This document shows positions 4,071-57,487 of a DNA stretch of 64,000 nt, one piece after another. A program made the translations under genes and the position numbers. Location: contig JAPLDJ010000010.1 in the NCBI GenBank assembly GCA_026391805.1, forward strand, positions 186,001 to 250,000. The letters run 5' to 3'. The stretch comes from Bacteroidota bacterium (GTDB lineage: Bacteria; Bacteroidota; Bacteroidia; Bacteroidales; FEN-979). A model generated the notes under the pieces. It saw nothing but the letters and a program-made list of their open reading frames with translations. It was not told the origin of the DNA and did no database searches. Numbering within the stretch: the first letter of the stretch is position 1; every line of letters starts with the position of its first letter.

Positions 4071-4160
4071 TTACACGAAGAACCACGAAGCCTGTCGGCA
4101 GGCAGGAAGACACGAAGGACCACGAAGAAAAGTTCACCAGTTCACCCGTTCACCAGTTAA
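4071..4160. repeat. Intergenic composite repeat: CACGAAG module, palindrome fragment, octamer array
   Basis: From left to right: CACGAAG-type units (4073-4130) split by CCTGTCGGCAGGCAGG at 4091-4106, a shortened copy of the palindrome seen elsewhere in the window. Then an octamer array follows: AGTTCACC, AGTTCACC, CGTTCACC, AGTTAA (4131-4160). The array ends one base from the stop codon of the Crp/Fnr gene. No coding potential is supported. Confidence 0.75.
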
Positions 4161-4161
4161 T

Positions 4162-4872
4162 TTACCCTGACTGTGTCGCAATTGACTTTAATCCATCCGG
4201 ATTAAGGAGAAAGATCTTCCGGCCCTTTATGGCAATGAGTTCTTCATCCTTAAACTCGGAGAGCAGACGAATGACGGTCTCGGATGCTGTACCGATGATG
4301 TTGGCCAGGTCGAGGCGCGTCAGGTTCAGGTAATCTTTGACATTCTTCTCAGGATGCGGGTAGAAGGAATTAAAAAGGAAAAGAAGCGTTTCGGCCAGTC
4401 GCTCCCTCACCGGCTTGTAGGCCAGCGAGATCATCCTCATTTCGGCCTCTTCCAGCAGTTTGCTGAGGGTCAGGATCAGGGAACGGGTGAATTCCGGGTA
4501 CTTTACCATCAACTGGAAGAAATCCGTTTTGGAGATGAAGCAGATGACTGAATCTTCCAGTGCAGAGGCGGAAACGGAATGATCATTCCCGCTGAGGAGG
4601 GCTTTCAGTCCGAGGAACTCTCCCGGAAGAACGACTCTTGTAATATGCTCTTTCCCTTCCTGGGTGTTTTTGAAAACCTTGATCTTCCCTTCGCGGATGC
4701 AGAAAACCCCGAGCGACTTATGACCTTCTTCATAAATAAGCTGCCCCTTTTTGAAGATCAGCGTATTTTTCTGTTCGTTCAGATACTGGAGGTCGGCATT
4801 GTCAAGCGAATGAAAAAATTTGAGGAATCCTGACTGGCATTCTTCACACAGGATGTCTCTTGCTTTTTTCAT
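4162..4872 (-). CDS. Crp/Fnr-family transcriptional regulator
   Basis: 236 residues. It has a cyclic-nucleotide-binding-like beta-roll (about 25-140; GQLIYEEGHKSLGVFCIREG, LPGEFLGLKALLSG), a dimerisation helix, and a C-terminal winged helix (LTRLDLANIIGTASETVIRLLSEF, about 182-206). C9 and C12 near the N-terminus (CEECQ) are the only clustered cysteines; a four-cysteine FNR cluster is not visible, so Fe-S sensing is uncertain. The gene lies upstream of, and in the same direction as, the Hdr/Qmo-like operon, from which it is separated by a repeat block and a palindromic operator candidate. Redox control of that operon is a reasonable inference. An adenylate cyclase gene is also in the window (57640-59484), but a link is speculative. 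Confidence 0.85.
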   Translation of the reverse strand: MKKARDILCEECQSGFLKFFHSLDNADLQYLNEQKNTLIFKKGQLIYEEGHKSLGVFCIREGKIKVFKNTQEGKEHITRVVLPGEFLGLKALLSGNDHSVSASALEDSVICFISKTDFFQLMVKYPEFTRSLILTLSKLLEEAEMRMISLAYKPVRERLAETLLFLFNSFYPHPEKNVKDYLNLTRLDLANIIGTASETVIRLLSEFKDEELIAIKGRKIFLLNPDGLKSIATQSG

Positions 4873-4974
4873 CTTCCCCTGAATTTTGATTTTCTTTGAA
4901 GGTTAAATTTACAACTATTCTGAAATGAAAATTAAAATAGCGTACTTTTATTCATTGTATTTATTTAACCCTAT

Positions 4975-4995
4975 CCACCATCCAGCATCCAGCAT
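4975..4995. repeat. Heptamer micro-tandem array (CCAGCAT)
   Basis: Three contiguous 7-bp units: CCACCAT, CCAGCAT, CCAGCAT. It lies in the intergenic region between the divergent crp/fnr-like gene and hypF, 40 bp before the hypF ATG. Confidence 0.7.
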
Positions 4996-5035
4996 CTATG
5001 TGTTTCTTGGTAAATAGTAAACAATCTTGTTGCTA

Positions 5036-8633: not shown

Positions 8634-9639
8634 GACGATACGGTTGCATCATGGAAGCGGCGGTTTGCTGATGCAGGAGCTGATCCGCGATCTGTTCCTG
8701 CGGTATTTTGACAACCCAGGGCTGCGATCACTGACCGATTCGGCAATCCTGCCACTGAATTCAGCACAGATCGCTTTCACGACCGACAGCTTTGTTGTCG
8801 ATCCTTTATTTTTTCCAGGAGGGGATATCGGTAAACTCGCCGTATGCGGAACGGTCAACGACCTTGCCGTTTCCGGCGCCGTGCCGCTATTCCTATCTGC
8901 AGCCTTCATCATCGAAGAGGGGCTTTCCATGGATGATCTTGAAACCATTGTGAAATCGATGGCAAAGGAAGCATCCAAAGCCGGTGTTTCAATCGTCACA
9001 GGCGATACCAAGGTCGTTCCGAAAGGAAAGGGAGACAAGCTCTTCATCAATACAGCAGGGATCGGGAAGATCGAAAAAAAATACGCTGGGATCAGCCACG
9101 GACTGAAAACGAAACCCGGAGATCTTGTCCTGATCAACGGCACCATCGGGGATCACGGGATGACAGTGATGAATGCCCGCGGAAATTTTCATTTTTCTTC
9201 CTCACTTGAATCCGATTGCGGATCGCTGAATAAATTCATTCAGAAAATCCTGCATAATTCAGAAGGGGTGAGGTTCATGCGCGATGCCACCCGCGGGGGA
9301 CTTGCAGCCGTTCTGTGCGAATTTGCCGAAAAATCAGGATACGGGATCGAGATCGATGAAAGAACTGTTCCGGTGAAAGAGGAGGTGAACGGCATGTGCG
9401 AACTGCTGGGGTTCGATCCCCTGCATGTTGCCAATGAAGGCAAGGTTGTCATGGTTGTCGAAAAAAAATATGTGGAAGAGGTTCTCTGTATCATGAAACG
9501 TCAGAACCAGGGAAAGAAGAGTGCAGTGATCGGGAGGATCGTTGAGGATCATAAAAAGAAGGTAAAGCTGAGAACGGTTTCCGGGGGCAGCCGCTGGATA
9601 GATCTACCGGCGGGGGAGCAGCTGCCGAGGATATGTTAA
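8623..9639 (+). CDS. hypE: Hydrogenase expression/formation protein HypE
   Basis: 338 residues from the ATG at 8623 (a second ATG at 8626 is equally possible). The longer in-frame extension to 8557 lies wholly inside hypD and is not needed. The start, AKTIRLHHGSGGLLMQELI, is the usual HypE N-terminus. The AIRS-type ATP-binding fold is visible (DSFVVDPLFFPGGDIGKLAV, GDTKVV, RDATRGGL). The protein ends in PRIC, the C-terminal cysteine that carries the carbamoyl and then thiocyanate group. HypE dehydrates the carbamoyl group supplied by HypF and donates cyanide to the HypC-HypD scaffold. The stop codon is overlapped by an octamer repeat array. Confidence 0.97.
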   Translation: MMAKTIRLHHGSGGLLMQELIRDLFLRYFDNPGLRSLTDSAILPLNSAQIAFTTDSFVVDPLFFPGGDIGKLAVCGTVNDLAVSGAVPLFLSAAFIIEEGLSMDDLETIVKSMAKEASKAGVSIVTGDTKVVPKGKGDKLFINTAGIGKIEKKYAGISHGLKTKPGDLVLINGTIGDHGMTVMNARGNFHFSSSLESDCGSLNKFIQKILHNSEGVRFMRDATRGGLAAVLCEFAEKSGYGIEIDERTVPVKEEVNGMCELLGFDPLHVANEGKVVMVVEKKYVEEVLCIMKRQNQGKKSAVIGRIVEDHKKKVKLRTVSGGSRWIDLPAGEQLPRIC

Positions 9640-9670
9640 CTGGTGAATTGGTGGACTGGTGAGTTGGTCA
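9639..9670. repeat. Octamer micro-tandem array (ACTGGTGA)
   Basis: Four 8-bp units: ACTGGTGA, ATTGGTGG, ACTGGTGA, GTTGGTCA. The first base is the last base of the hypE stop codon. It lies between hypE and hypA. Confidence 0.75.
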
Positions 9671-9705: not shown

Positions 9706-9948
9706 ATGCATGAGTTGTCGCTGGCGATGAGCCTGATTGAACTGGCAGAAAAAGAAACAGTAGACTCGGGCAATTCCAGGATCCTTTCGGTAAAGGTGAT
9801 CGTGGGCTCAGTGTCGGGCGTCGATCCTGATGCTTTCAGTTTTATGCTGGATCTGGCGAAGAAAAATACAATGCTCGAATTTGCCGTTATAAACCTGGAT
9901 ATTGTCGATGGGGGCGAGCTGAGGGTGGTGTCGATAGAGGTGGAGTAG
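9706..9948 (+). CDS. hypA: HypA-like nickel metallochaperone lacking the zinc domain
   Basis: 80 residues, against about 113 for HypA. The N-terminus MHELSLAMSLIELAEKE keeps the nickel-ligand H2, and the core GSVSGVDPDAFSFMLDLA matches HypA. At residue about 67 the usual two-CxxC zinc domain is missing: INLDIVDG runs straight into GELRVVSIEVE, which looks like the family's normal C-terminal tail after the zinc loop. The protein has no cysteine at all. So the zinc domain seems precisely deleted in frame rather than the gene being truncated. HypA normally hands nickel to HypB or the hydrogenase large subunit; no hypB is in the window. The gene is fifth in hypFCDEA, after a repeat array. Confidence 0.75.
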   Translation: MHELSLAMSLIELAEKETVDSGNSRILSVKVIVGSVSGVDPDAFSFMLDLAKKNTMLEFAVINLDIVDGGELRVVSIEVE

Positions 9949-9954
9949 AAATAG

Positions 9955-9980
9955 TAAGATGGCAAGATGGTAAAATGGTA
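9955..9980. repeat. Octamer micro-tandem array (TAAGATGG)
   Basis: Units TAAGATGG, CAAGATGG, TAAAATGG, then a decayed TAATAT. It begins 7 bp after the hypA stop codon. Confidence 0.7.
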
Positions 9981-9993
9981 ATATTTTTGAACA

Positions 9994-17048: not shown

Positions 17049-17503
17049 AGGATTGCATGTTTGTGTCCGTAATAAACTTTTGTTCTTTCTGAGATAGCTG
17101 ATACCTCCTTAGAGTTACTCAAAAATATAAAAAAAATAATCTCATCATCCCGATACCTCACCAACATATCAGCTCAACGATTTCCGGCCTGGAACTTTAA
17201 ACCATACAACGCTGCAAAAATATCTTGACAAAATTTTAAACTGAATGTATATTTGTTTATCTGCATATGTACCTGTTTAATTGTTAACAGTTGAATTTGA
17301 ATATTCACGCATGCAAACTGCCATTTTCCGTCTGAACATTGAACGGTGATTTTACAATAAAAAGCTCTGCTGATGATAACATTCGATTGAAAACCGTGCA
17401 CAGCAGTCAACCGAAAAAGGAGTGATCTGAAAATCCTTAACAGAGTAGGACAGGGATGCTGAAAACTGATAAGAGTAAGCGACAACTCTAATACGACATA
17501 AGT
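17049..17503. other. Intergenic 455 bp, AT-rich, with a strong plus-strand promoter candidate
   Basis: No convincing gene; the 103-codon reverse frame here has no family features. A -33 TTG (17225-17227) and -7 TATATTTG (17248-17255), 20 bp apart, fit the Bacteroidetes promoter well and point toward the CBM9-like gene. This would give a 5' leader of about 240 nt. No riboswitch structure was recognised. Confidence 0.5.
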
Positions 17504-20711: not shown

Positions 20712-20735
20712 CGCCAGTTCGCCAGGTCGCAAGTT
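20712..20735. repeat. Octamer micro-tandem array (CGCCAGTT)
   Basis: Three 8-bp units: CGCCAGTT, CGCCAGGT, CGCAAGTT. The last two bases are part of the stop codon of the gene at 20734-22119. Confidence 0.7.
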
Positions 20736-22119
20736 ACTCTTTTACAAACTTCCCAACTTTAACCGATCTGTTATTCGTCAGCCTGAAAAAATAGATCCCT
20801 GCCGGCAGGTTGCTGATATCCATCATTATTTTTGGATCCGTTATCTGACGGGCGAGGATTTGCTGACCATCCGGGTTCATGATGGTCAGGTTGTATTTTG
20901 CCGGAATTTCTGATGTTTCAATTGTAATCTTATCAGTGGCCGGATTTGGATAAATTAATAACCCTGATTCCTGCGGCGCATTCATCCCGACGGAGACGGA
21001 ATCAAATTTCATTACCGATGCCTTCCCGCCACTCGCGCCATCCAAATATACTACATACGGCTGACCTGAAGGGTTGCAGGCAATCGATGTTCCCTGCGTA
21101 TAGTCTGCCGAAAAACCTGCATCTCCAACAACCACCCAACTGGTCCCGTTGAATTTCATGACGGTTGCCTTATAAAAAAGCAATGTGTCAGAATATGCCA
21201 CATAGGGTTCACCGTCGACCGGGCTGAAGGCAAGGCTTGGCATAAAAGCTTCTCCATCGGTGAATCCGGCTTCTCCGACAAGTATCCAGTTGCTGCCGTC
21301 GAATTTCATGACAGTCGCTTTATAAGAATACGCAGAATCCATAAAAACCAGGTGAGGCTCACCGGCAGGACTGAACGCAAATTTTGACGCACCGGAAGGT
21401 GCTGAGGTAAACCCTGCAGTTCCAACCATTACCCAGTTTGCGCCATCAAATCTCATTACTGTTTCCTTAAAATTATTCCCGTAATCTGAATATGCTACAA
21501 AAGGCTCACCGGCCGGACTAACCGCTAAGTTAACATCGGTTGCAGTACCACCTGAGAAACCTCCCGTCCCCACAACCACCCAGTTGGTGCCGTCAAATTT
21601 CATCGCAGTTACGCCAAAGGAACTCGCATAATCCGTAAAAGCCACATAGGGCTCACCGGTTGGGCTGAACGCAAAACTGATGTTATCCGCTTTCGCAGGC
21701 GTGAACGCTTGCGGACCCACAAACACCCAATTGGTACCGTCAAATTTCATCACGGTAGCTTTGTATGAATTCACAATATCCTGGTATGACACATAGGGCT
21801 GACCATCGGTCGGACTGATGGCAAGGCTGATAATATTGGCCCTCCCGGATGTGAAACCTGCGGATCCGACATAACCCCAACTGGTTCCGTCAAATTTCAT
21901 CACCGATCCTTTATCGGAATTGGCCCCATCCTCATAGGCAACGTAAGGTTCACCTGAAGGACCGAAAGCAATGCTTGTAAATACAGCCAATCCCGCCGAG
22001 AAACCTGTATCTCCGACATACTTCCACGAATAATCGGTGAGGGAAGATTTATACCCGTAATGCTGGGCGAATACAAAAACCGGGAACATGATTAAAAAGA
22101 GACCGAATAACTTTTTCAT
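20734..22119 (-). CDS. T9SS-secreted seven-blade beta-propeller protein (paralogue of 15648-17048)
   Basis: 461 residues. Signal peptide about 1-18 (LFLIMFPVFVFAQ). Seven units of about 51 residues carry VMKFDGTNWVVVGTGGF and LAFSPVDGEPYVAYSD. The first and last units complete each other as in a closed propeller. The T9SS type A domain is LLIYPNPATDKITIET ... DISNLPAGIYFFRLTNNRSVKVGKFVKE. The stop codon overlaps an octamer array. Paralogy with 15648-17048 indicates duplication, now separated by the CBM9-like and OmpA genes. Ligand unknown. Confidence 0.85.
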   Translation of the reverse strand: MKKLFGLFLIMFPVFVFAQHYGYKSSLTDYSWKYVGDTGFSAGLAVFTSIAFGPSGEPYVAYEDGANSDKGSVMKFDGTSWGYVGSAGFTSGRANIISLAISPTDGQPYVSYQDIVNSYKATVMKFDGTNWVFVGPQAFTPAKADNISFAFSPTGEPYVAFTDYASSFGVTAMKFDGTNWVVVGTGGFSGGTATDVNLAVSPAGEPFVAYSDYGNNFKETVMRFDGANWVMVGTAGFTSAPSGASKFAFSPAGEPHLVFMDSAYSYKATVMKFDGSNWILVGEAGFTDGEAFMPSLAFSPVDGEPYVAYSDTLLFYKATVMKFNGTSWVVVGDAGFSADYTQGTSIACNPSGQPYVVYLDGASGGKASVMKFDSVSVGMNAPQESGLLIYPNPATDKITIETSEIPAKYNLTIMNPDGQQILARQITDPKIMMDISNLPAGIYFFRLTNNRSVKVGKFVKE

Positions 22120-22240
22120 AGGACAAGATGTTAAGTTGCGAATTCACTTCTTCCAATTTGAAAGACATTCACAAATTAGCCAGGTTGCCTGAACAATAGT
22201 TCAATAGTAAAAAAAGAAGATCCGGGGTCCATGATCCGAA

Positions 22241-22271
22241 GATGGAAAATGGAGGATGGAGGATGGAAAAT
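22241..22271. repeat. Heptamer array (GGATGGA)
   Basis: GATGGAAAAT, then GGATGGA twice (22254-22267), then a repeat of the first phrase. It lies between the start of 20734-22119 and the small gene at 22338-22568. Confidence 0.6.
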
Positions 22272-30360: not shown

Positions 30361-30672
30361 TTTGAATATGGATTATTAATGCGGTTTGATGGTTCGGTTT
30401 CTGTTAAAAAGCTGGTCTAACAAATTTAATGATTTTAATATAAAAAGATGAATTGCATGAAAATTATTTCCGACTTCGGATCTCTGACCTCTGACTTCCG
30501 TTTTTAAGTGTACCACAGATTTACGCAGATTTTCACACCTGCCAGCCGCAGGCAGGGATTGATCACAGAAAATATTTTCTGAACTCAGACCTCAGACTTC
30601 AGACCTCTGTTTACAAAGAACTTTATAACTTTGCCACCTAACCTGAAATCTTTCCATTCAAAAATCAAAATC
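30361..30672. other. Intergenic 312 bp: repeats and M13 promoter
   Basis: Heptamer array at 30470-30497 (CCGACTT, CGGATCT, CTGACCT, CTGACTT). Next a TACCACAGATTT module contains the near-palindrome CCTGCCAGCCGCAGGCAGG (30538-30556). A second heptamer array follows (CTGAACT, CAGACCT, CAGACTT, CAGACCT; 30579-30606). A -7 box TAACTTTG at 30626-30633 fits TAnnTTTG and would start transcription near 30640. This rules out the in-frame ATG-like extension at 30631 as the start of the next gene. Confidence 0.7.
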
Positions 30673-32743: not shown

Positions 32744-32850
32744 TTGATGCTGGATGCTGGAGGCTGGATCTCTGTGACTAATCCCTGCCTGCGGCTGGCA
32801 GGTGTGTAAATCCCTGCCTGCCGGCAGGCAGGTGTGTAATCTGTGGTGAA
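32744..32850. repeat. Heptamer array followed by two palindromes inside an AATCTGTGG module
   Basis: Heptamers TTGATGC, TGGATGC, TGGAGGC, TGGATCT (32744-32771). Then an AATCC...GTGTAAATC module carries CCTGCCTGCGGCTGGCAGG (32784-32802), followed by a second module copy with the perfect palindrome CCTGCCTGCCGGCAGGCAGG (32813-32832). The first palindrome is the exact reverse complement of that at 30538-30556. Confidence 0.8.
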
Positions 32851-33970: not shown

Positions 33971-33998
33971 GCGCATAGCGCTTAGCGCCCAGCGCCTA
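33971..33998. repeat. Heptamer array (GCGCATA) filling a convergent intergenic spacer
   Basis: Four units: GCGCATA, GCGCTTA, GCGCCCA, GCGCCTA. It begins one base after the phosphatase stop codon and ends two bases before the DUF5916 gene's stop codon, so it accounts for nearly the whole spacer. Confidence 0.8.
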
Positions 33999-36473: not shown

Positions 36474-36533
36474 TAGGAACTTTTTTTTGGTTTGTGAAGA
36501 AAATTTGATTGTATAGTAAAACGGAGATCGGAG

Positions 36534-36720
36534 GTCAGATGTCAGATGTCAGATGTCAGATGTCAGAGGGCGGAAAATCTTTCTGTGACAAATCTGTGTT
36601 AATCCGTGTAAATCTGTGGTGAGAATTTTATTTCACGAAATTCCATGAAGGAGACACGAAGAACTATTGTGACCTAATGTGCCTATTGTGGTGAAAAAAG
36701 CGAAAAGCGAAAAGCGAAAA
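36534..36720. repeat. Composite repeat, empty-palindrome version
   Basis: Heptamer array GTCAGAT x4 plus GTCAGAG (36534-36568). Then the TCTGTG/GTGTAAATCTGTGG module (36582-36621), here without a palindrome (AATCC meets GTGTAAATC at 36605/36606). Next a CACGAA segment (36633-36662) and the CTATTGTG / CCTAATGTG / CCTATTGTG module (36664-36690). Last, heptamers GCGAAAA x3 (36700-36720) end 4 bp before the macro-domain gene's stop codon. Confidence 0.85.
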
Positions 36721-36724
36721 GCCT

Positions 36725-37237
36725 CTAGCTCTGCATCAACTTCCTGTAGATCTCAAGATTACCTTCATCAAAGCAGACGAAGATGACTTTCTCCGGAAGA
36801 TCATTTTTAGCCAGGAATTCCTTCACTTCCCGGAGTGCGATTTCTGCAGCAAGCTTTTTTGGAAAATGGTAGATCCCCGTGCTGATGTTCGGGAAGGCGA
36901 TGGTCCTGCATTGATGTTCAACGGCCAGTTTCAGGCTTTCACGGTAGCAGGAGGCAAGCAATGCTGCTTCATTCATGGTTCCGTCATGCCACACCGGTCC
37001 CACCGTGTGGATGATGTACCTTGCCTGCAGCTTAAATCCTTTCGTGATCCTGGCTTCTCCTGTCGGGCAGCCGCCCAGCAGCCGGCAGACCTCCAGCAAT
37101 CCCGGGCCGGCGGCACGGTGAATGGCGCCGTCAACGCCACCGCCGCCCATCAGTGACTGGTTTGCGGCATTCACAATGGCATCAACATTAAGTTTGGTAA
37201 TGTCGCCCTGAATGAGTTCGATCTTAAAACCGTTCAT
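36725..37237 (-). CDS. Macro-domain ADP-ribose hydrolase/O-acetyl-ADP-ribose deacetylase
   Basis: 170 residues, a single macro domain. [26 protein letters not shown] (19-44) contains the ADP-ribose-binding loop with N26 and D36. [24 protein letters not shown] and the second loop [23 protein letters not shown] are also typical. These enzymes hydrolyse O-acetyl-ADP-ribose or ADP-ribose on proteins and nucleic acids. It lies immediately downstream of the inositol monophosphatase gene in the same direction; an operon is possible although a repeat separates them. Confidence 0.92.
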
Positions 37238-37256: not shown

Positions 37257-37279
37257 ATTCGTTATTCGATTATTCGATT
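37257..37279. repeat. Short array (ATTCGATT)
   Basis: AATTCGT(T), ATTCGATT, ATTCGATT. It lies between the inositol monophosphatase stop and the macro-domain start, ending 6 bp before the former's stop codon. Confidence 0.55.
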
Positions 37280-37284
37280 GTTCT

Positions 37285-38073
37285 TTATATAAAGTTTTCC
37301 CTGAACCTCGCCAGGAACTCCTCAAATAGATTCGCATTGGTTGCAATGATCTCTTTCCCGAAAATGAAATTGTCGCCATTGCTGAAATCGGAAACCCTTC
37401 CTCCTGCATTCTTTACGAGGATCGTTCCGGCAGCGACATCCCAGGGACTGAGCCCGTATTCATAGAATCCGTCGAAACGACCGCAGGCAACATAGGCGAG
37501 GTCGGCAGCGGCGGAACCCAGCCGGCGGACACCATGACTGTTCTTCATCATAAACCTGAACATGTTCATGTATGGATCCAGCCGTCCGTAATCATAATAG
37601 GGGAAACCGGTGGCGAAGAGGCTGTCAGTGAGCTTACCGGTTTCGGATACAACGATCTCCTTTCCGTTCAGGAAAGATGGCGCGCCTTTCCAGGTATAAA
37701 AACACTCCTTCCGGTTGATCTCGACGATGACCCCGAGGATCACCTCATTTCCGTTCATCAGTGCAATGCTGATCGAATATAGCGGGATGGCATGTATGAA
37801 GTTCGTCGTTCCGTCGAGCGGATCGATCACCCAATTCAGCTCTTTGATCTCCAGGTCAGGACTCTCTTCAGCGATAAAGCCGGTTCCCGGAACGATCTTC
37901 GACAATCCTTCCATCAGGCGTGCTTCAGAAGATTTGTCGACATAAGTGACGAAATTGTGAATACTCTTCACTTCAATGTCAGTTGTACTTAGTTTGTCGA
38001 CTTCTTCCAGAAGGAAATCAGCGGTTTGAAGGCTGAGTTCGCATACCTGGTTTGTGATTTTTTTCAGATCCAT
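37285..38073 (-). CDS. Inositol monophosphatase family protein
   Basis: 262 residues. Metal-binding and catalytic motifs are GFIAEES (E70), WVIDPLDGTTNFIHAIP (D84, D87, T89) and SPWDVAAGTILVKNAGG (D at about 212). The fold and length match SuhB/IMPase. It hydrolyses inositol-1-phosphate or related phosphomonoesters and may act in nucleotide or lipid pathways. No neighbouring gene clarifies the substrate. Confidence 0.93.
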   Translation of the reverse strand: MDLKKITNQVCELSLQTADFLLEEVDKLSTTDIEVKSIHNFVTYVDKSSEARLMEGLSKIVPGTGFIAEESPDLEIKELNWVIDPLDGTTNFIHAIPLYSISIALMNGNEVILGVIVEINRKECFYTWKGAPSFLNGKEIVVSETGKLTDSLFATGFPYYDYGRLDPYMNMFRFMMKNSHGVRRLGSAAADLAYVACGRFDGFYEYGLSPWDVAAGTILVKNAGGRVSDFSNGDNFIFGKEIIATNANLFEEFLARFRENFI

Positions 38074-38079
38074 CTTGTT

Positions 38080-38354
38080 CCATCCTCCATCTTCATTATT
38101 TAACCACAGATTTCACACCTGCCTGCCGCAGGCAGGGATTCCACAGAATCTTCTTTTCTGACCTCCGACCCCTGATCTCCGATTTCTTTTTTCACCACAA
38201 TAGGCACATTAGGTCACAATAGGATTTACCAACTCCTTCGTGGTTCTTCATGGTTCTTCGTGTAATAAAATTCTCACCACAGATTTACACACCTGCCTGC
38301 CGGCAGGCAGGGATTAACACAGATTTGTCACAGATTATATCCATCCTCCATCCT
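38080..38354. repeat. Composite repeat, inverted relative to 36534-36720, with two palindromes
   Basis: CCATCCT, CCATCTT (38080-38093). A CACAGATTT module with CCTGCCTGCCGCAGGCAGG (38118-38136). Heptamers CTGACCT, CCGACCC, CTGATCT, CCGATTT (38158-38185). Then, in reverse orientation, the CTATTGTG, CACGAAG and AATCTGTGG modules, with the perfect palindrome CCTGCCTGCCGGCAGGCAGG at 38292-38311. Finally CCATCCT x2 (38341-38354) ends on the first base of the mtaB stop codon. Confidence 0.85.
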
Positions 38355-39640
38355 CACCACTTCACAACATATTCCAACTTCTCATCCAATTCCTCCAGTC
38401 TGACTTCAACGATTTGATTCACCAACTCAGCATCGAACAACGTCCTGACTTTAATGTAATTCTCCGTAAACCCATGCATGAAACCGCCGCTGTTGTCTCC
38501 TTCAAAAAGAACCCTTGCAAGCGCTCCTTTATTTTTCAGGTAGAAGTCTTTCTTTTTCGTTTCGGATAACTGGTGCAGAAGATGACTCCGCTCCTTTTTG
38601 ATCCTGTCCTGAACCGGTTCCGGCATTTTGGATGCAAGTGTGTTTTCCCGTTTCGAGTAGGAAAAGACATGCATATAGGAAAGATCAAGTCCTTCAAGAT
38701 AATTGTATGTTTCCCTGAAATCAGCATCCGTTTCCCCCGGAAAACCGACGATCACATCGGTTGCGATACAGGCCAGCGGAAGCACTTCACGGATCTTCTT
38801 TATTCTTGAAGCAAAATGAGCAGTGTTGTATTTCCGCTTCATTGATTTCAGAATTGTATCAGAACCCGACTGCAGCGGGATGTGGAAATGGGGCATGAAT
38901 TTCCCTGAAGAAGCGATCAGGTCGATGATTTCATCATTCAGGAGATCAGGTTCGATCGATGAGACCCTGATCCTGGAAACCTCTTCAACCTTATCAAGTG
39001 CTTTTACAAGTCCGGGGAAGGATTCGTTGTTGTGCCTTCCGAAATCACCGATGTTCACTCCTGTTAGTACAATCTCTTTGATGCCGGCCTGAGCCACTTC
39101 CTTTGCATTTTTAATTACATTTTCAATTGTATCGCTGCGGCTGTGGCCGCGGGCAAGCGGGATGGTGCAATAGGAGCAATAATAATCGCATCCGTCCTGG
39201 ATCTTCAGGAATGAACGGGTACGGTCGCCTAACGACCAGGAAGGAACAAAATCATTTGCTGAAGGAAGATGCGGATGCCCGTATTCACCTGGGGTGAACA
39301 GCCTTTCGACCTCTTCGGGAAGCGTAAACTTTGCTGAATGCCCCAGCACGATGCTGACCCCTTCCATTTTCTCCAGTTCGCCGGGAGAAAGTTCAGGGAA
39401 ACAGCCGATCACGGCGATCTTCCCTTCGGGATTCAGCTTGTGGGCCTGGCGGATAGCAGCACGGCATTTCTTCTCGGCGACGGCAGTTACCACGCAGGTG
39501 CTGATCACATAAACGTCAGCAGGTTCATGGAAATTCCGGATCTGGAATCCCCTTTCTTTGAATTGTCTCGAAAGTGCGGATGCTTCTGCAAAATTCACCT
39601 TGCAGCCGAAATGATGAAATGCTATGGTTCGGGGGTTCAT
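38354..39640 (-). CDS. mtaB: tRNA t6A37 methylthiotransferase MtaB
   Basis: 428 residues. N-terminal UPF0004 cysteines C13, C49 and C80 ligate one cluster. The radical-SAM motif CDYYCSYC (C151, C155, C158) ligates the second. A TRAM-like C-terminus follows. The start MNPRTIAFHHFGCKVNFAEA matches MtaB rather than MiaB. It adds a methylthio group to N6-threonylcarbamoyladenosine at tRNA position 37. A -7 box lies only 5-12 bp before the ATG, so the leader is very short or absent. Confidence 0.93.
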   Translation of the reverse strand: MNPRTIAFHHFGCKVNFAEASALSRQFKERGFQIRNFHEPADVYVISTCVVTAVAEKKCRAAIRQAHKLNPEGKIAVIGCFPELSPGELEKMEGVSIVLGHSAKFTLPEEVERLFTPGEYGHPHLPSANDFVPSWSLGDRTRSFLKIQDGCDYYCSYCTIPLARGHSRSDTIENVIKNAKEVAQAGIKEIVLTGVNIGDFGRHNNESFPGLVKALDKVEEVSRIRVSSIEPDLLNDEIIDLIASSGKFMPHFHIPLQSGSDTILKSMKRKYNTAHFASRIKKIREVLPLACIATDVIVGFPGETDADFRETYNYLEGLDLSYMHVFSYSKRENTLASKMPEPVQDRIKKERSHLLHQLSETKKKDFYLKNKGALARVLFEGDNSGGFMHGFTENYIKVRTLFDAELVNQIVEVRLEELDEKLEYVVKW

Positions 39641-39652: not shown

Positions 39653-39684
39653 CGAGTTCGACAGGGAAATGAGATGCGAGATTT

Positions 39685-39714
39685 GGGATCTGGGATTTGG
39701 GATTTGGGATTTGG
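39685..39714. repeat. Heptamer array (GGGATTT)
   Basis: GGGATCT, GGGATTT, GGGATTT, GGGATTT, GG. It ends one base before the stop codon of the DMT transporter gene, and lies about 33-60 bp upstream of the mtaB -7 box. Confidence 0.75.
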
Positions 39715-39715
39715 C

Positions 39716-40615
39716 TCATTTCCTGAGCGCCTGCTGCAACAGGATACCGCCGACGATGAAAGCCAGTCCGATGATGGTGGAAAGAAGGATCGCCTCTCCC
39801 ACAAAAAAACGGATCAGGAGCAGGGAGATGAAAGGGGAGAGGTAGATCAGGTTGGATACCCGGGCAGTGGTGGAAGAGAGTTTCAATGCCATCAGCCAGA
39901 GGACGAACGTGACACCCATTTCGAAAATACCAAGGTATACGGAACCTGCAATGCCCTGCCAAGGGAGGATCGGGAAGCGGCTCCAGTTCAGACCGAACAG
40001 CCTGAGGAGACCGATGGTCAGAAGGATGTACAGAAAACCGAAGCAGAAATTCAGGAAGAGCTTGGAAACCTCTTCCCGTTTGTCTTTCAGGTTGAATATC
40101 CAGTACAGGGCCCAGAACAGGGCACTGCCCAGAGCCAGTGCGACACCCGTCGGGCTTGAAAACCGGAAGCTCAGCGGCTCTCCGTGGGTCGAGATGAGGA
40201 TGATCCCCAGGAAACTGATGAGTATTGCAAAAACGCTCCATGCACTGATCTTCTGTTTCAGCATCGGGATCGACAGCAGCACCAGGGCCAGCGGCCAGAT
40301 GTAGTTCAGGGTGCCGGCTTCCTGCGCCGGTAAGAGGTCATAGGCGCGCAGAAGTACAAGATAGTAAAGGAATGGGTTCAGAAGGCCCAGGAATGCTGAA
40401 TGGATGAGGTTTTTCCTTGTGATGGTTTTCAGTAAAACCAGTTTCCGCTGGAAAAGCAGTGTCAGGAAAAGAACTACGATGGCAACAAATGAGGAGAAGA
40501 GAAGCAGTGTCAGGAAATCGATGTACCGCAATGAGATCTTAAAGGCAGAACCGATGGTCGACCAGCACAGAATGGCAAGGAGCGCATAGACATAAGCCTG
40601 CCTTTGTTGCTTCAT
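39716..40615 (-). CDS. DMT-superfamily (EamA) transporter
   Basis: 299 residues, ten hydrophobic helices in two EamA halves (LLAILCWSTIGSAFKISLRY, IWPLALVLLSIPMLKQKIS, ISLLLIRFFVGEAILLSTIIGLAFIVGGILL). It probably exports metabolites or drugs; the substrate is not identifiable. It lies divergently from arcC and precedes mtaB in the same direction. A second EamA gene is at 43997-44887. Confidence 0.88.
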   Translation of the reverse strand: MKQQRQAYVYALLAILCWSTIGSAFKISLRYIDFLTLLLFSSFVAIVVLFLTLLFQRKLVLLKTITRKNLIHSAFLGLLNPFLYYLVLLRAYDLLPAQEAGTLNYIWPLALVLLSIPMLKQKISAWSVFAILISFLGIILISTHGEPLSFRFSSPTGVALALGSALFWALYWIFNLKDKREEVSKLFLNFCFGFLYILLTIGLLRLFGLNWSRFPILPWQGIAGSVYLGIFEMGVTFVLWLMALKLSSTTARVSNLIYLSPFISLLLIRFFVGEAILLSTIIGLAFIVGGILLQQALRK

Positions 40616-40720: not shown

Positions 40721-41665
40721 ATGAAAAAACTTGCTGTTGTCGCACTCGGAGGAAATGCCTTATTGCAGAGTGACCAAAAGGGAACCATTGAAGACCAGGA
40801 ATCGAATGCTCTTGCAACTGCTGAGAGTCTGGTGAAGTTGCTGAAACGTGATTACAACTTCGTTGTAACCCACGGAAACGGACCCCAGGTAGGGAACATC
40901 ATGCTGGCCAATTCGGCAGGATTTAAAATGTACGGGCTGCCTGAAATGCCGCTTGACATCTGCGTTGCCTATTCACAGGGATTCATCGGCTACATCATCG
41001 AGCAGCAGTTGAAGAATGTGCTCAATTCCCTTGATATGGAAAGGGATATCATCACCATTGCCACGCAGGTACTGGTGAACAAGCTGGATCCTGCCTTTAA
41101 GAATCCTACAAAACCTGTTGGTCCCTTTTATACAAAGGAGGAGGCCGATAAGTTCATGGCCGAGTCTGGCGCAGTCTTCAAGGAAGATTCCCGCGGCAGG
41201 GGATGGAGGAAAGTTGTGGCATCTCCTAAACCGCTTGTCATTATCAATAAAAAGACCATTGAAAAGATCGCCCGCGAAGGAAATATCGTGATTGCCGTCG
41301 GCGGCGGCGGGATCCCTGTTTTCTATGTTGAGACCAATAAACTCCAGGGCATCGATGCCGTGATCGACAAAGACCTTGCTTCCGCTTTGCTGGCTTCACA
41401 GATCAATGCCGATAAATTCTTTATTCTGACGGATGTGCCGAAAGTCTGCCTTAATTTCAATACACCCGAGGAAACACCCATCGACCGCATGACCATTGCC
41501 GAGGCACAGCAGTACCTTGATGAAGGTCAGTTTGCCGAAGGCAGCATGGGGCCGAAGATCCGGGCCGCCATCCGGTTTGTGGAAAATTCAGGGAAAGATA
41601 CCATTATCACCAAGACCACCATGCTGGGGGTTGATAACGGAGGAACGAGGATCACGCTGGTTTGA
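40721..41665 (+). CDS. arcC: Carbamate kinase
   Basis: 314 residues, full length. MKKLAVVALGGNALLQ begins the amino-acid-kinase fold; THGNGPQVGN, AVGGGGIPVF, DKDLASALLA and GSMGPKIRAA are conserved family motifs. It interconverts carbamoyl phosphate + ADP and carbamate + ATP. In fermenters it produces ATP from carbamoyl phosphate; carbamoyl phosphate is also HypF's substrate, though the genes are 33 kb apart. No arcA or arcB is nearby. The stop codon overlaps a heptamer array. Confidence 0.95.
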   Translation: MKKLAVVALGGNALLQSDQKGTIEDQESNALATAESLVKLLKRDYNFVVTHGNGPQVGNIMLANSAGFKMYGLPEMPLDICVAYSQGFIGYIIEQQLKNVLNSLDMERDIITIATQVLVNKLDPAFKNPTKPVGPFYTKEEADKFMAESGAVFKEDSRGRGWRKVVASPKPLVIINKKTIEKIAREGNIVIAVGGGGIPVFYVETNKLQGIDAVIDKDLASALLASQINADKFFILTDVPKVCLNFNTPEETPIDRMTIAEAQQYLDEGQFAEGSMGPKIRAAIRFVENSGKDTIITKTTMLGVDNGGTRITLV

Positions 41666-41927
41666 TTTACGATTTACGAGTTGTATCAGATACTGGATGC
41701 TTGATTTCTGTGACTAATCTGTGAAAATCCCTGCCTGCCGGCAGGCAGGTGTGTAAATCTGTGGTGAAAAATAATTACACGAAATTCCACGAAGAAGACA
41801 CGAAATTCCACGAAGAAGACACGAAATTCCACGAAGAAGACACGAAATTCCACGAAACCCTATTGTGACCTAATGTGCCTATTGTAGTGAAAAAAATTGT
41901 AGATCGTAAACCGTAAATCGTAATTCG
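41664..41927. repeat. Composite repeat, filled-palindrome version, with 21-bp tandem array
   Basis: GATTTAC x2 (41664-41677) overlaps the arcC stop codon. Then the TCTGTG/AATCC module with CCTGCCTGCCGGCAGGCAGG (41730-41749). Then a 21-bp tandem array, unit CACGAAATTCCACGAAGAAG plus A, 3.8 copies (41778-41856). Then the CTATTGTG / CCTAATGTG / CCTATTGTA module (about 41860-41886). Last, heptamers TAGATCG, TAAACCG, TAAATCG, TAATTCG (41900-41927) end 3 bp before the next gene's stop codon. Confidence 0.85.
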
Positions 41928-41930
41928 GAT

Positions 41931-42194
41931 TTATTCCTGGAATATCATCTTCTTCACTTCCAGTCCTTCAATTTTCAGAAGTTCATTCTCGAGTTTGCTG
42001 AATTCTGCAGTGTCGCCGGTCAGCTCAAGTAGCATCATGCCGGTGGGGGAGGAGAATTCTTCGGTGACGTCGTGAAGTCCCAGGCGGGTGCGGATGCTGC
42101 AACCGAACTTGGTGAGTACAGGTTGTACAAGTGAGGCTTCTTTTACCCTGTCGGATATGTGGATGCCAAGGATCCAGATCTCTTTCTTTTCCAT
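41931..42194 (-). CDS. TM1266-type iron-only hydrogenase system regulator (copy 1)
   Basis: 87 residues, ACT/NikR-C-like beta-alpha-beta fold. WILGIHISDRVKEASLVQPVL, RTRLGLHDV and LEGLEVKKMIF-type C-terminus match the TM1266 family of small putative regulators linked to FeFe hydrogenase. It is a paralogue of the next gene (42204-42461), sharing the ISDR(V/I)KEA, RLG(L/F)H and IEG(L/V)EV(K/Q)KM patterns. No DNA-binding domain is visible, so a regulatory role is only inferred from association. Third gene of the hydG operon. Confidence 0.8.
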   Translation of the reverse strand: MEKKEIWILGIHISDRVKEASLVQPVLTKFGCSIRTRLGLHDVTEEFSSPTGMMLLELTGDTAEFSKLENELLKIEGLEVKKMIFQE

Positions 42195-44974: not shown

Positions 44975-45547
44975 TTGGAAACCGCATATATAAATATTCA
45001 CCAGGATGTTATTGATGCCTGCAAAACGGGCGACCGGAATGCGCAGTTCAGGATCTACAAACTCTATTATAAAGCCATGTACAACACCAGCCTCAGAATC
45101 GTAAACGACACAGCCGAAGCGGAAGACATCATGCAGGAATCCTTCCTGGATGCGTTCCGCCGCATCGACTCGTATACCGGCGAAGGCAGCTTTGGTTCAT
45201 GGCTGAAACGGATCGTCATCAACAACTCGCTCGATGAACTCAGGAAGAAGAAAGAGATGGTTTCCATCGAGGCGAGTGAACTTGAATTTCCGGAGGTGGT
45301 AGAAGAAAACAGGGAGGAAGAGATCCGGTTGCAGGTGACGGAAGTGAAGGAAACCATCGGTGAACTTCCGGAAGAGTACCGCATCGTGATCACGCTTTTC
45401 CTGTTTGAAGGATATGATCATGAAGAGATCAGCGAGATCCTCGGCATCTCGAACAACCTCTCCCGCATCAGGTTCCTGCGGGCGAAGCAGCGGCTGTTAA
45501 AGATCCTGAAAGAAAAGAAACTGAAATCATCGTTTAACTATAACTGA
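44975..45547 (+). CDS. ECF-type RNA polymerase sigma factor
   Basis: 190 residues beginning at TTG (44975); no upstream ATG is available because an in-frame stop lies 15 bp before, and the next ATG would remove region 2. Region 2 is FRIYKLYYKAMYNTSLRIV ... AEDIMQESFLDAFRRIDSY ... FGSWLKRIVINNSLDELRK. Region 4 is LPEEYRIVITLFLFEGYDHEEISEILGIS ... RFLRAKQRLLKILKE. It is separated by one base from the next gene, a putative membrane anti-sigma factor. It is expected to drive its own operon and envelope genes. Confidence 0.92.
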   Translation: METAYINIHQDVIDACKTGDRNAQFRIYKLYYKAMYNTSLRIVNDTAEAEDIMQESFLDAFRRIDSYTGEGSFGSWLKRIVINNSLDELRKKKEMVSIEASELEFPEVVEENREEEIRLQVTEVKETIGELPEEYRIVITLFLFEGYDHEEISEILGISNNLSRIRFLRAKQRLLKILKEKKLKSSFNYN

Positions 45548-45548
45548 T

Positions 45549-46082
45549 ATGGACAAGCTTGAAAAATTCTTTGCCGAAAACCGCGAATCCTTTGATGATG
45601 CGGAACCCGTGGAAGGCCATTTCAGCAGGTTCCAGGAAAAGCTTGACATGGAGCCGGGCAGTGAGAGGTTTGCAAAGAACCGGATGTTCTTACTGAAGAT
45701 CGCTGCCGTTATAATTGTCCTGCTCACCGTATCTGTTTTTGTTTTTGATTTCACCGCCGGCCGTCTGACAAAAGCCTTCAAAGGAGAACAAGCCGGAGCA
45801 GCCATCTCCACCGAGATGCAGGAAGCCATCAATTATTATGACAAGTCTGCCTCTTCAAAGCTCGGACAGATCGATCAGCTTGCCTGCTGCGGACAGGATA
45901 CCCGGAAGATCCACACCATGGCCGGTAAGGAAATGAATGACCTGGATGCAAATTCAGCCGAACTGCAGAAGGCACTGTCGGAAAACCCCGGCAATGAAAG
46001 GATCCAGAACGCCATCATCCGGAACCACCAGATGAAGGACGAGGTGATGAAGCAGGTTGTTAAGCAGATGAAAAGGAAGTAA
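45549..46082 (+). CDS. Putative membrane anti-sigma factor
   Basis: 177 residues, one membrane helix at about 47-67 (MFLLKIAAVIIVLLTVSVFVF). The N-terminal 45 residues are cytoplasmic and charged, and the C-terminal 105 residues are extracytoplasmic and helical, with a CC pair near residue 115. The position right after an ECF sigma gene and the one-TM layout suggest an anti-sigma factor. No RsiW-type zinc motif is seen. The family is not recognised; the role is inferred from context. Confidence 0.65.
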   Translation: MDKLEKFFAENRESFDDAEPVEGHFSRFQEKLDMEPGSERFAKNRMFLLKIAAVIIVLLTVSVFVFDFTAGRLTKAFKGEQAGAAISTEMQEAINYYDKSASSKLGQIDQLACCGQDTRKIHTMAGKEMNDLDANSAELQKALSENPGNERIQNAIIRNHQMKDEVMKQVVKQMKRK

Positions 46083-46128
46083 TTGGTAATTGATAATTGA
46101 TAAATCGTAAATCGTAGATCATAATCCC
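46080..46128. repeat. Heptamer array beginning with the anti-sigma stop codon
   Basis: Seven contiguous 7-bp units: TAATTGG, TAATTGA, TAATTGA, TAAATCG, TAAATCG, TAGATCA, TAATCCC. The first unit begins with the TAA stop codon of the previous gene. It ends 8 bp before the next ATG and replaces a ribosome binding site-like region. Confidence 0.85.
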
Positions 46129-46135
46129 CCCAGCC

Positions 46136-47185
46136 ATGAAAACATTAATAAAGCTCCTCCCGCTCTTAGCCCTGATTTTTATCCTGGTTCCGAGGAATGC
46201 CAGGGCGCATGATGATTACATCAAGGTGATCAAAAAGGAATTCACCATAAACCCGGATGCACAGTTCATCCTCGAAAATAAGTTCGGCCAGGTTCATTGC
46301 AACAATTGGGACAAGAACAGCATTTTGCTGGAGGTCAGGATCACGGTGACGGCCGGCAACCAGGATGCAGCCAATAAACTGTTCGGCCTGGTCAACATCG
46401 TAACCAGCGGCACTCCGTCACAGGTCGAAGCCAGGACGGTGTTCACAGCCGACGGTCCCAAGGGAAATTCTAACATCAGTGTGGACTATATTGTCAGCAT
46501 GCCTGCCACCGTCAACCTTAACCTGACCAACAAGTTCGGGGATGTCTATCTCAATGACCTCTCCGGCAAAGGCAACATTAACCTTGCCTATGGCGATCTC
46601 GACGCCAACCGGCTGCTGAACTCCGATAACGTCATTGACATCAAATTCGGAAAAGCAAATGTTCAGCACATTACCGGCGCCATGTTGACACTGAAGTATT
46701 CAGAAATGAAAGTCGGTTATGCCGGAAGCCTCTTCCTGGACGGAAAATATTCGGATCTCGACGGGGATAAGGTCATTTCCCTTTCGATGGGAATGGAAGG
46801 CGGCAAAGTGAACGTGGAAAATACGTCTGCAGTCACCGGCAAATCAAGGTTCGCCGACCTGAACATCGGCACGCTGGATAAAAAGCTTGACCTGGACATC
46901 CAGTACGGAAATTGTGATGTTGATAATGTGGCAGCAGACTTTTCCCTGATCTCTATACGGAACAAATACGGAGATGTATCGGTGAACATTCCCACGGGAA
47001 CCTCTTATACCCTCGAAGCCGACCTTAAATTCTGCGACCTCGATTTCCCGGAGGATCAGACCAGCTTTACCCAGAAAATCTCCACAAACACCTCTAAAAC
47101 GATTAGGGGAACGGTTGGCAAAAAGCCCGGCCCCGAAGCAAAGGTGATCGTTAAAAGCGAGTTTGGAAATGTTTCTCTGGAATAA
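46136..47185 (+). CDS. Secreted DUF4097-type beta-helix protein
   Basis: 349 residues. Signal peptide about 1-24 (LIKLLPLLALIFILVPRNARA). The body is a series of short beta repeats (NKFGDVYLNDLSGKGNINLAYGDLDA, KYSDLDGDKVISL, NKYGDVSVNIP) of the DUF4097 putative adhesin kind. It is the third gene of the ECF sigma operon and so is probably an envelope protein controlled by that sigma factor. Its precise role is unknown. Confidence 0.8.
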   Translation: MKTLIKLLPLLALIFILVPRNARAHDDYIKVIKKEFTINPDAQFILENKFGQVHCNNWDKNSILLEVRITVTAGNQDAANKLFGLVNIVTSGTPSQVEARTVFTADGPKGNSNISVDYIVSMPATVNLNLTNKFGDVYLNDLSGKGNINLAYGDLDANRLLNSDNVIDIKFGKANVQHITGAMLTLKYSEMKVGYAGSLFLDGKYSDLDGDKVISLSMGMEGGKVNVENTSAVTGKSRFADLNIGTLDKKLDLDIQYGNCDVDNVAADFSLISIRNKYGDVSVNIPTGTSYTLEADLKFCDLDFPEDQTSFTQKISTNTSKTIRGTVGKKPGPEAKVIVKSEFGNVSLE

Positions 47186-47186
47186 A

Positions 47187-47214
47187 TCATACGTCATAAG
47201 TCATACGACATATG
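47187..47214. repeat. Heptamer array (TCATACG)
   Basis: TCATACG, TCATAAG, TCATACG, ACATATG. It begins two bases after the stop codon of 46136-47185. Confidence 0.75.
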
Positions 47215-57217: not shown

Positions 57218-57487
57218 TTACTTACGGATCTTCAGCTTCTTGATGATCGCCCTGTAACGTTCAATGTCTTTTTCTTTGAGATAACCCAGCAGTTTCCTGC
57301 GCTTTCCTACCATCATGACGAGCGAGCGCTCGGTAGCCATGTCTTTCTTGAATTCTTTCAGGTGCTCGGTAAGATGCTGGATCTTCTTGGTAAACAATGC
57401 AACCTGTGCTTCAACTGAACCGGAATCAAATTCCGACTTGCCAAATTCCTTAAATGCCTTTTTCTTTTCTTCTGGTGCGATATTCAT
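57218..57487 (-). CDS. rpsO: 30S ribosomal protein S15
   Basis: 89 residues, full length. KKAFKEFGKSEFDSGSVEAQVALFTKKIQHLTEHLKEFKKDMATERSLVMMVGKRRKLLGYL is the S15 signature. It binds 16S rRNA helices 20-22. A -7 box TACCTTTG lies upstream at 57542-57549. Confidence 0.98.
   Translation of the reverse strand: MNIAPEEKKKAFKEFGKSEFDSGSVEAQVALFTKKIQHLTEHLKEFKKDMATERSLVMMVGKRRKLLGYLKEKDIERYRAIIKKLKIRK

Follow-up and report, generated by a model that had tools for sequence, protein, structure and literature searches.

Short tandem arrays with units of 7 or 8 nucleotides lie flush against the 3' boundaries of genes in a genome of the Bacteroidota (28 contigs, 3.89 Mb) and in other members of its genus, and the purine-rich strand of these arrays is predominantly the sense strand of the adjacent gene. 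The pattern is real and strong, and it is of a known kind with new, testable regularities. A preliminary description of a 64-kb stretch of this genome (the window, meaning here the whole stretch of DNA analysed) had taken the stop codon to be the anchor of such arrays. We find instead that the arrays are tied to the 3' boundary of genes, translated or not.

The arrangement can be seen at gene 45549-46082 of the window (+ strand; no Pfam family at E ≤0.001), which has an ECF sigma factor gene (44975-45547) on one side and a DUF4097 gene (46136-47185), followed by a DUF2807 gene, on the other. The gene closes with AAG TAA, and a period-7 array (46079..46120, +) begins inside this stop codon (46080-46082). 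Read from the TAA on, the sequence consists of one TAATTGG, two TAATTGA and two TAAATCG units, the unit drifting from TAATTGG/TAATTGA to TAAATCG, and the next gene begins at 46136. TRF makes two period-7 calls here (46080-46103 and 46101-46124), and both the sequence and these calls bear out the earlier reading of 46080-46128 as a heptamer array overlapping a stop codon. The TAATTGA unit is common to the orthologous gene ends of G000, the genome of the window, and its genus-mates G001, G003 and G004; the G004 frame runs one residue further and closes at the TGA contained in the first unit. The neighbouring DUF4097 gene has a period-7/14 array of the TCATACG family (47182..47212, +) at its stop, and the orthologue of this gene has other repeats at its stop in G001, G003 and G004.

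The window contains 14 arrays of period 7, 8 or 14 with a score of at least 10, in agreement with the previous count of at least fourteen sites. Nine sites had been named as stop-linked; a scan at lags 7 and 8 recovers seven of them (4160, 20735, 34000, 38354, 39714, 41664 and 46080), 9639 is called by TRF only, with a low score, and 28896 appears in neither the lag scan nor TRF. Around stops, the same scan adds genes 9706-9948, 36725-37237, 37285-38073, 41931-42194 and 46136-47185. At a score of at least 11, the intergenic DNA of the window holds 11 arrays of period 7, 8 or 14, and 50 shuffles of it gave 0-2 each and 4 in total.

Downstream of plus-strand genes, a short period-7 GATTTAC array (41664..41679) lies at the stop of gene 40721-41665, an imperfect period-8 array, AACTGGTG, called by TRF only (9638..9668), at that of gene 8671-9639, and a further period-8 array (9956..9981) 7 nt past that of gene 9706-9948; a period-7 GATGCTG array (32746..32768, +) is 27 nt past a stop. 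Behind minus-strand genes, period-7 arrays are found 3 nt from the stop of gene 41931-42194 (CGTAAAT, 41905..41927), 1 nt from that of gene 39716-40615 (GATTTGG, 39680..39714) and 2 nt from that of the Macro-domain gene 36725-37237 (AAAAGCG, 36696..36722); the latter two arrays are pyrimidine-rich in the sense of their genes and are exceptions to the strand rule described below. A short period-7 array on the same strand (sense GGATGGA, 38340..38355) overlaps the stop of gene 38354-39640. Period-8 arrays on this strand lie 1 nt from the stop of gene 37285-38073 (37262..37283), 3 nt past that of gene 4162-4872 (sense CTGGTGAA, 4131..4158) and, in imperfect form, at that of gene 20734-22119 (sense CTGGCGAA, 20712..20735). 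One period-7 array (33971..33996) fills a 31-bp gap where two genes converge, leaving 1 nt to one stop and 4 nt to the other. Other period-7 arrays stand away from stops: GTCAGAT (36522..36567) in the intergenic region shared with the 36696..36722 array, CATCCAG (4973..4996) and CTCAGAC (30584..30604) in divergent regions, and GATGGAG (22238..22267) with the nearest stop 70 nt off.

The window also contains dispersed modules (36521-36720, 38079-38355, 41689-41900 and 32779-32841), several of which have a period of 9-11 nt (AATCTGTG, CACGAAGAA, CCTATTGTG), together with a palindrome, CCTGCCGGCAGGCAGG. These modules occur in both orientations genome-wide and are frequently distal to the 7/8-mer arrays. 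A perfect 21-bp unit, ACACGAAATTCCACGAAGAAG, is repeated in 3.8 copies at 41777-41856, and positions 17417-17451 match the DUF805b cis-regulatory RNA (Rfam RF02914) with a score above the gathering threshold.

The abundance of the arrays was determined in a sample of the same genome comprising the window and 20 further stretches (464 kb, 12 percent of the genome). Genes were predicted with a simple caller of our own, which in one E. coli stretch recovered 43 of 48 annotated stops and called 1 extra. The 312 intergenic regions of this sample (60,023 bases) contain 58 period-7 arrays against 0.17 per dinucleotide shuffle (30 shuffles, maximum 1), 13 period-8 arrays against 0.03 and 8 period-14 arrays against 0.03; periods 4, 9, 10 and 11 are likewise above the shuffles, with 7, 6, 8 and 5 arrays, each against fewer than 0.3 expected. 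Coding DNA, rescaled to about 60 kb, holds 0.8 period-7 arrays compared with the 58 of intergenic DNA, and three stretches of E. coli K-12 (150 kb, 17,006 intergenic bases) hold no arrays at all. The lag-7/8 excess over shuffled intergenic DNA that had been proposed as a check is thus present in this 12 percent sample. The statement that every site has its own unit proved too strong: the 85 period-7/8 arrays comprise 57 distinct units, the commonest of which (CATCCAG/CTGGATG) accounts for 10. Runs of three G or C occur in 5 of the 85 units, with four such runs in only 2 arrays, and 2 of the 85 units are near-palindromic.

Three perfect tandem copies of the unit GATGCTG occur in at least 116 stretches from genome records of many phyla, 80 of which are listed (L108-L187), and in 4 genomes, that of the window included, of a 296-genome phylum draw. 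Among the 80 listed of at least 116 loci, 73 arrays lie off the locus edge, 23 of them inside ORFs; 14 of the 73 lie outside ORFs with an ORF stop no more than 5 nt away, and 11 of these have GATGCTG in the sense strand; this is a raw count in which 2 of the 14 arrays are sister-genome records. A unit lexicon common across phyla was also considered; unit sharing is not a fair test of it because genomes G326-G331 had themselves been selected by GATGCTG.

The position of the arrays relative to genes was compared with uniform random placement, intergenic regions longer than 1500 or 2000 nt being excluded (2 of 95 arrays in the own-genome edge test). The 93 arrays of the window's genome in regions shorter than 2 kb have 99 edges that face a stop, and 35 of these are no more than 3 nt away from it, against 10.3 expected; none of 2000 random placements of the arrays within their own regions reaches 35, so that the proposed excess of period-7/8 arrays near stops holds against controls in the 12 percent sample. 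Start-facing edges are at chance (6 of 87 within 3 nt against 5.0). Flush stop edges number 11 of 52 in G004 (4.1 expected) and 16 of 47 in G001-G003 (6.7 expected), where most of the G001-G003 stretches and some of those from G004 were selected for their match to the window. Farther afield, 3 of 12 edges are flush in the family member G011 (1.0 expected, p 0.05), 3 of 28 in G149 of the same phylum (0.8 expected, p 0.03) and 0 of 2 in G201; of two order-mates, G020 yielded one period-7 array and G026 none. Stretches of G149 and G201 were taken partly at GATGCTG hits, and G326, G328 and G329 were chosen for having this unit. Three genomes selected for carrying GATGCTG, from the Desulfobacterales, Chitinophagaceae and Saprospiraceae, have 7 of 19 (1.9 expected), 4 of 16 (0.8) and 5 of 17 (1.7) stop edges flush, respectively.

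Anchoring is restricted to particular periods. When the genus is pooled, 40 of 147 edges of period-7/14 arrays are flush with a stop (15.3 expected), as are 22 of 51 edges of period-8 arrays (5.8 expected). Arrays of periods 9-12, an internal control from the same DNA, are not anchored (3 of 54 edges against 2.7). The corresponding counts in the other genomes are 15 of 79 against 5.2 for period 7/14, 7 of 16 against 1.1 for period 8 and 1 of 19 against 1.3 for periods 9-12. The boundary is sharp: edges per nucleotide amount to 6.75 at -4 to -1 relative to the stop, 6.5 at 0 to +3, 3.0 at +4 to +7, 0.75 at +8 to +11 and about 1 from +12 to +59. Array density in the window's genome is 0.76 per kb in divergent regions, 1.92 in tandem and 2.19 in convergent ones. 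Under a looser criterion (periods 6-12, at a distance of 4-10 nt), arrays are found on start sides as well: in the window's genome 8 of 230 starts and 26 of 187 stops have one, and in the stretches from sister genomes 14 of 146 starts and 22 of 116 stops. Genes with a weak coding score were excluded from this count, as well as from those of stop usage, stop-base recurrence, tRNA versus protein ends and hairpins.

An array could in principle supply the first stop to an open reading frame and so appear anchored. As a general cause this artefact is ruled out by the match of C-termini, which differ by no more than 3 residues in 28 of 33 ortholog pairs in which one member has an array, compared with 59 of 68 pairs in which neither has one; there are single cases of it, among them the 46082 site in G004. 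Anchoring also holds for arrays that are free of stop codons in every sense frame (18 of 82 edges against 6.5). Among 69 anchored arrays, 24 show the last two stop-codon bases again one unit further along, where random stops would give 10.8, and some arrays therefore seem to include the stop or to have been seeded there rather than pushed to it.

The same seat is found behind genes that are not translated. Among 88 unique tRNA 3' ends from the stretches and loci of the genus (G000-G004), each followed by 40 nt or more of space, 15 have an array starting within 12 nt (0.1 by shuffling), a proportion that equals the 62 of 367 protein ends. The stop codon, named as the anchor in the preliminary description, is not the anchor as such, since tRNA 3' ends bear arrays equally often; the anchored stop-free arrays likewise contradict that claim. 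The two classes differ in offset. Behind tRNA genes, the array begins at a distance of 6-11 nt in 12 cases and of 0-5 nt in 3, with 0-2 per 6-nt bin beyond, and behind protein genes it begins at 0-5 nt in 53 cases; over the remainder of the first 84 nt both classes have few arrays, and their peaks are of similar height (2.27 percent per nt at 6-11 nt for tRNA, 2.41 at 0-5 nt for protein genes). At a stricter limit of 7 nt the counts are 8 of 88 tRNA ends and 58 of 370 protein ends (Fisher p 0.13), in line with the 6-11 nt offset of the tRNA arrays. The 3' flanks of tRNA genes at L089, L266, L281, L285 and L316 contain hairpins with arms made of heptamer arrays (for example ATGAGTA or AAGTGCG), and ATGAGTA is common to tRNA-Ala genes of G001 and G004.

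The orientation of the arrays follows the gene. Stop-anchored arrays have a mean GC skew of +0.37 and are purine-rich in the sense strand in 52 of 62 cases, as are 14 of the 15 arrays at tRNA ends. With all genomes pooled, the ratio of purine-rich to pyrimidine-rich sense at stops is 52:7 in tandem and 23:6 in convergent regions. In convergent regions, arrays at the left edge are purine-rich on the + strand (9 of 12) and those at the right edge on the - strand (11 of 12); the strand therefore goes with the gene and not with replication, and a replication-strand explanation is contradicted. Within 60 nt before starts the sense is pyrimidine-rich in tandem regions (37:16), and strand bias is absent before starts in divergent regions (6:5). 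The rule is strong in G000 (30:6), G004 (12:1), G001-G003 (16:2) and the Saprospiraceae genome (6:0), and weak in the samples from the Desulfobacterales (4:3) and Chitinophagaceae (4:2).

Arrays persist at orthologous gene ends while their units turn over. Both ends of an orthologous pair carry an array in 30 of 112 pairs against 16.9 after permutation (p 0.0005), the pairs falling within at most 49 ortholog groups and not being independent; the comparison with sister genomes that had been suggested thus finds arrays recurring at the same stops, as with TAATTGA at the 46082 end. Array similarity is at least 24 in 11 of the 30 orthologous pairs compared with 14 of 489 other pairs, and other orthologous stops bear differing units or periods in G000 and its sisters. 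Within 49 arrays of at least 6 units, identity between units 1-5 units apart falls from 0.899 through 0.855, 0.835 and 0.804 to 0.773, where lag 1, unlike the other lags, was used in detection; similarity at two units exceeds that at four in 22 arrays and is below it in 9. Such decay along the arrays is as would be expected of local duplication and mutation, and disfavours fixed-template, telomerase-like addition. One array (L005, 15207-15308) shifts through CTGAAGA, CTGAGGA, CGGAAGT and TGGAGGA while holding its 7-nt phase.

Tests for RNA structure gave a mixed picture. An inverted partner (shuffle p ≤0.02) was present at 9 of 15 array-bearing tRNA ends and at 7 of 62 protein ends. Strong local hairpins were not enriched at array ends of protein genes (5 of 58 against 21 of 265 other ends) or of tRNA genes (5 of 15 against 18 of 63), and folding of positions +1 to +60 was not enhanced (z -0.76 at array ends, -0.72 at others). 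TTTT runs behind arrays were found at 6 of 60 protein ends (6.9 expected) and 2 of 14 tRNA ends (4.3 expected). For array pairs in one region, pooled with the other genomes, 32 of 172 are inverted against 5.8 by chance and 23 of 172 are direct; an earlier genus-only count gave 9 inverted and 11 direct among 86 pairs against about 3.9. An inverted-repeat hairpin as the general design is thus only partly borne out, direct pairs being in excess as well and protein ends contributing only 7 of 62. An intrinsic terminator composed of hairpin and T-run was rejected, a crude scan detecting 0 at 30 array ends compared with 8 at 135 others, and T-runs not being enriched. The 3' flank of gene 57218-57487 contains a terminator-like GGCAATTCAACCGATTGCC followed by TTTTTT, conserved in G000, G001, G003 and G004, and ordinary-looking terminators therefore coexist with arrays.

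The arrays belong to a recognizable type. The LSSR class consists of tandem units of 5-11 nt that exceed chance, are phylogenetically scattered and lie mostly in non-coding DNA (Mrazek 2007, as represented in passages of PMC4679880 and PMC4692102); according to the summary in PMC4679880, Mrazek found heptanucleotides to be the most abundant in most genomes and proposed an interaction with DNA polymerase. Here too heptamers are commonest (58 period-7 arrays, followed by 13 of period 8), and non-triplet lengths are kept out of coding DNA (0.8 against 58 per 60 kb). Beyond that class, period 8 is second in number and at least as strongly anchored, and the 3'-end seat, the strand rule and unit turnover are resolved. 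The heptamers GGGAATC and GGGGA(C/T)T of Xanthomonas and Nostoc, which can form G-quadruplexes, are another close parallel. Excerpts of PMC4692102 describe them as intergenic arrays that prefer the 50 bp next to a stop on the sense strand, often very close to the stop or overlapping it, with the G-rich strand in sense downstream of genes and antisense upstream; they are scarcer between divergent genes and are kept between the same genes with varying length and sequence, as is the case here. Xanthomonas transcripts start and stop more frequently at G4-forming repeats than at control repeats, and a function was not identified, according to the same excerpts. The present arrays share the stop seat and the G-rich sense strand (GC skew +0.37), but not the runs of three or four G or the G-quadruplex (5 of 85 units, 2 arrays with four runs), and they add 57 units among 85 arrays, period 8, tRNA ends and a quantified flush edge.

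TAACTGA direct repeats of marine Beggiatoaceae, also present in a few Bacteroidetes, lie near start codons, and one set in F. litoralis lies just past a stop in reverse orientation, the other sets being mostly before starts (MacGregor 2015, passages of PMC4679880). That family has one unit situated mostly just before starts, whereas none of the 85 units here is TAACTGA and start edges are at chance. E. coli REP elements are extragenic and near stops like the present arrays, part of them within 15 nt downstream, where they can stall ribosomes, but they are palindromic rather than short tandem units (PMC12306157, in the portion available). The arrays do not resemble REP/BIME elements in that only 2 of 85 units are near-palindromic, and Y1 transposases, of which G000 has two matches, do not track the arrays over 13 genomes. 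Filamentous cyanobacteria contain STRR, which are intergenic tandem heptamers in fixed unit families such as CCCCAGT. The CCCCAGT unit occurs in 0 of the 85 arrays. The suggestion that stop-linked heptamers were undescribed is, for the kind in general, not supported, given the stop-proximal, sense-strand heptamers of Xanthomonas and Nostoc (in the excerpts of PMC4692102) and the heptamer dominance reported by Mrazek in 2007. At the level of titles and abstract openings, mainly in the open literature, the pattern was not found for Bacteroidota beyond PMC4679880, nor were heptamers at tRNA ends. New here are the large number of units, the presence of period 8 and the arrays at tRNA ends; also new are a sense strand that is rich in purines but not built of G4 units, and arrays that persist across a genus as their units change.

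The explanation that we favour, at about an even chance, is that the arrays are satellites grown by slippage and brought by mutation and selection right up to the 3' end of functional sequence. They would be microsatellites of the LSSR type, with units of 7 or 8 nt, that grow through local self-templated duplication, by slippage or short unequal exchange, combined with point mutation. The data show that they accumulate at this 3' end, right behind protein stops and, at tRNA genes, after a gap of about 6-11 nt, the sense strand being the purine-rich one. Duplications of 7-8 nt would be frequent in these lineages, arrays touching coding or tRNA sequence would be purged, and functionless spacer would be lost over time so as to leave the arrays flush; the strand rule may stem from filtering of transcripts or from a bias that affects transcribed DNA. 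The bulk of the arrays would need no adaptive function, and some, such as the tRNA heptamer hairpins, may have been recruited. Spacer erosion alone leaves unaccounted for the non-flush arrays of periods 9-12 (3 of 54 against 2.7), the sharp edge and the fixed strand. The arrays that seem seeded at the stop (24 of 69 against 10.8) and those found before starts under the looser criterion also speak against it.

There are two rival readings, each of them rather unlikely. The arrays might be a selected RNA element in which a repeated purine-rich tail, in places together with its inverted partner, shapes the transcript end by termination, exonuclease protection or, at protein genes, ribosome stalling. 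The fixed strand at gene ends, the co-occurrence of arrays at orthologous ends, the heptamer hairpins at 9 of 15 tRNA ends and the inverted pairs (32 of 172 against 5.8) are consistent with this, as are the ribosome-stalling REP elements within 15 nt of stops (part of PMC12306157) and the transcript starts and stops at G4-forming repeats in Xanthomonas (part of PMC4692102). We nonetheless regard it as doubtful, given that inverted partners are found at just 7 of 62 protein ends, that local hairpins, folding and T-runs are not enriched, that direct pairs are nearly as common as inverted ones (23 of 172), and that only 62 of 367 spaced protein ends bear an array. Alternatively, transcription might drive expansion: ribosomes in coding regions and the tight tRNA fold would keep nascent RNA off the DNA, and the first free RNA behind a stop or a tRNA, if purine-rich, would form R-loops and provoke slippage there. 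R-loops are linked to repeat instability. Such a process would explain both boundaries with their differing offsets, and the gene-bound strand (9 of 12 on +, 11 of 12 on -) and the poverty of divergent regions (0.76 per kb against 1.92 and 2.19) point the same way; it is rather unlikely all the same, as tandem regions have mostly pyrimidine-rich arrays ahead of starts (37:16), where purine-rich ones would be expected if leaders behaved alike.

Insertion of array-carrying DNA at gene ends, whether mobile or by end-joining (REP-type transposase, Ku), would fit the recurrence of a unit at numerous loci (10 of 85 arrays have CATCCAG; GATGCTG occurs in many phyla among the matches listed) and of differing units and periods at one orthologous stop. 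It is very unlikely in view of the similarity decay along arrays and the array-bearing stretches, which are in large part collinear with G003 contig 86 (an informal breakpoint comparison); in an exploratory search of 13 genomes, a Ku match was absent and Y1 transposases were unlinked to arrays (0 in the array-rich G326, 6 in the array-poor G020). A stop-codon device, in which non-triplet periods supply stops in all frames as read-through insurance, is highly improbable and in its general form is refuted by the tRNA ends and the stop-free anchored arrays (18 of 82 against 6.5). Periods 10 and 11 would serve equally, yet periods 9-12 are unanchored; against this, some units do hold stops (TAATTGA), and TAG is mildly favoured (23 of 59 anchored ends against 58 of 255 array-less ends), a preference that is weaker in a wider set (19 of 69, compared with 160 of all 785 ends). 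That the pattern arises from chance, gene calling or assembly is scarcely credible: the caller is a simple one of our own and the assemblies are fragmented, but the shuffles, the zero count in E. coli, the 43 of 48 stops recovered and the same unit at one gene end in four species all argue otherwise.

For this genus, any account must jointly explain the anchor at the 3' end, the strand tied to the gene, the restriction to periods 7 and 8, and arrays that outlive speciation while their units turn over. A broader rule can be formulated, which we put forward as speculative and probably not correct in this form, whereby across phyla, in bacteria with an abundance of 7/8-nt repeats, the arrays arise where nascent RNA exits the protection of the ribosome or the tRNA fold, with the purine-rich strand in sense. 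If it were true, these repeats would be fossils of DNA instability linked to transcription at the ends of genes, and the size of the heptamer would report on the enzyme involved. The data narrow the question of why heptamers dominate the simple repeats of bacteria and whether they act, and the seat at the 3' end, the fixed strand and the long persistence make this old question testable.
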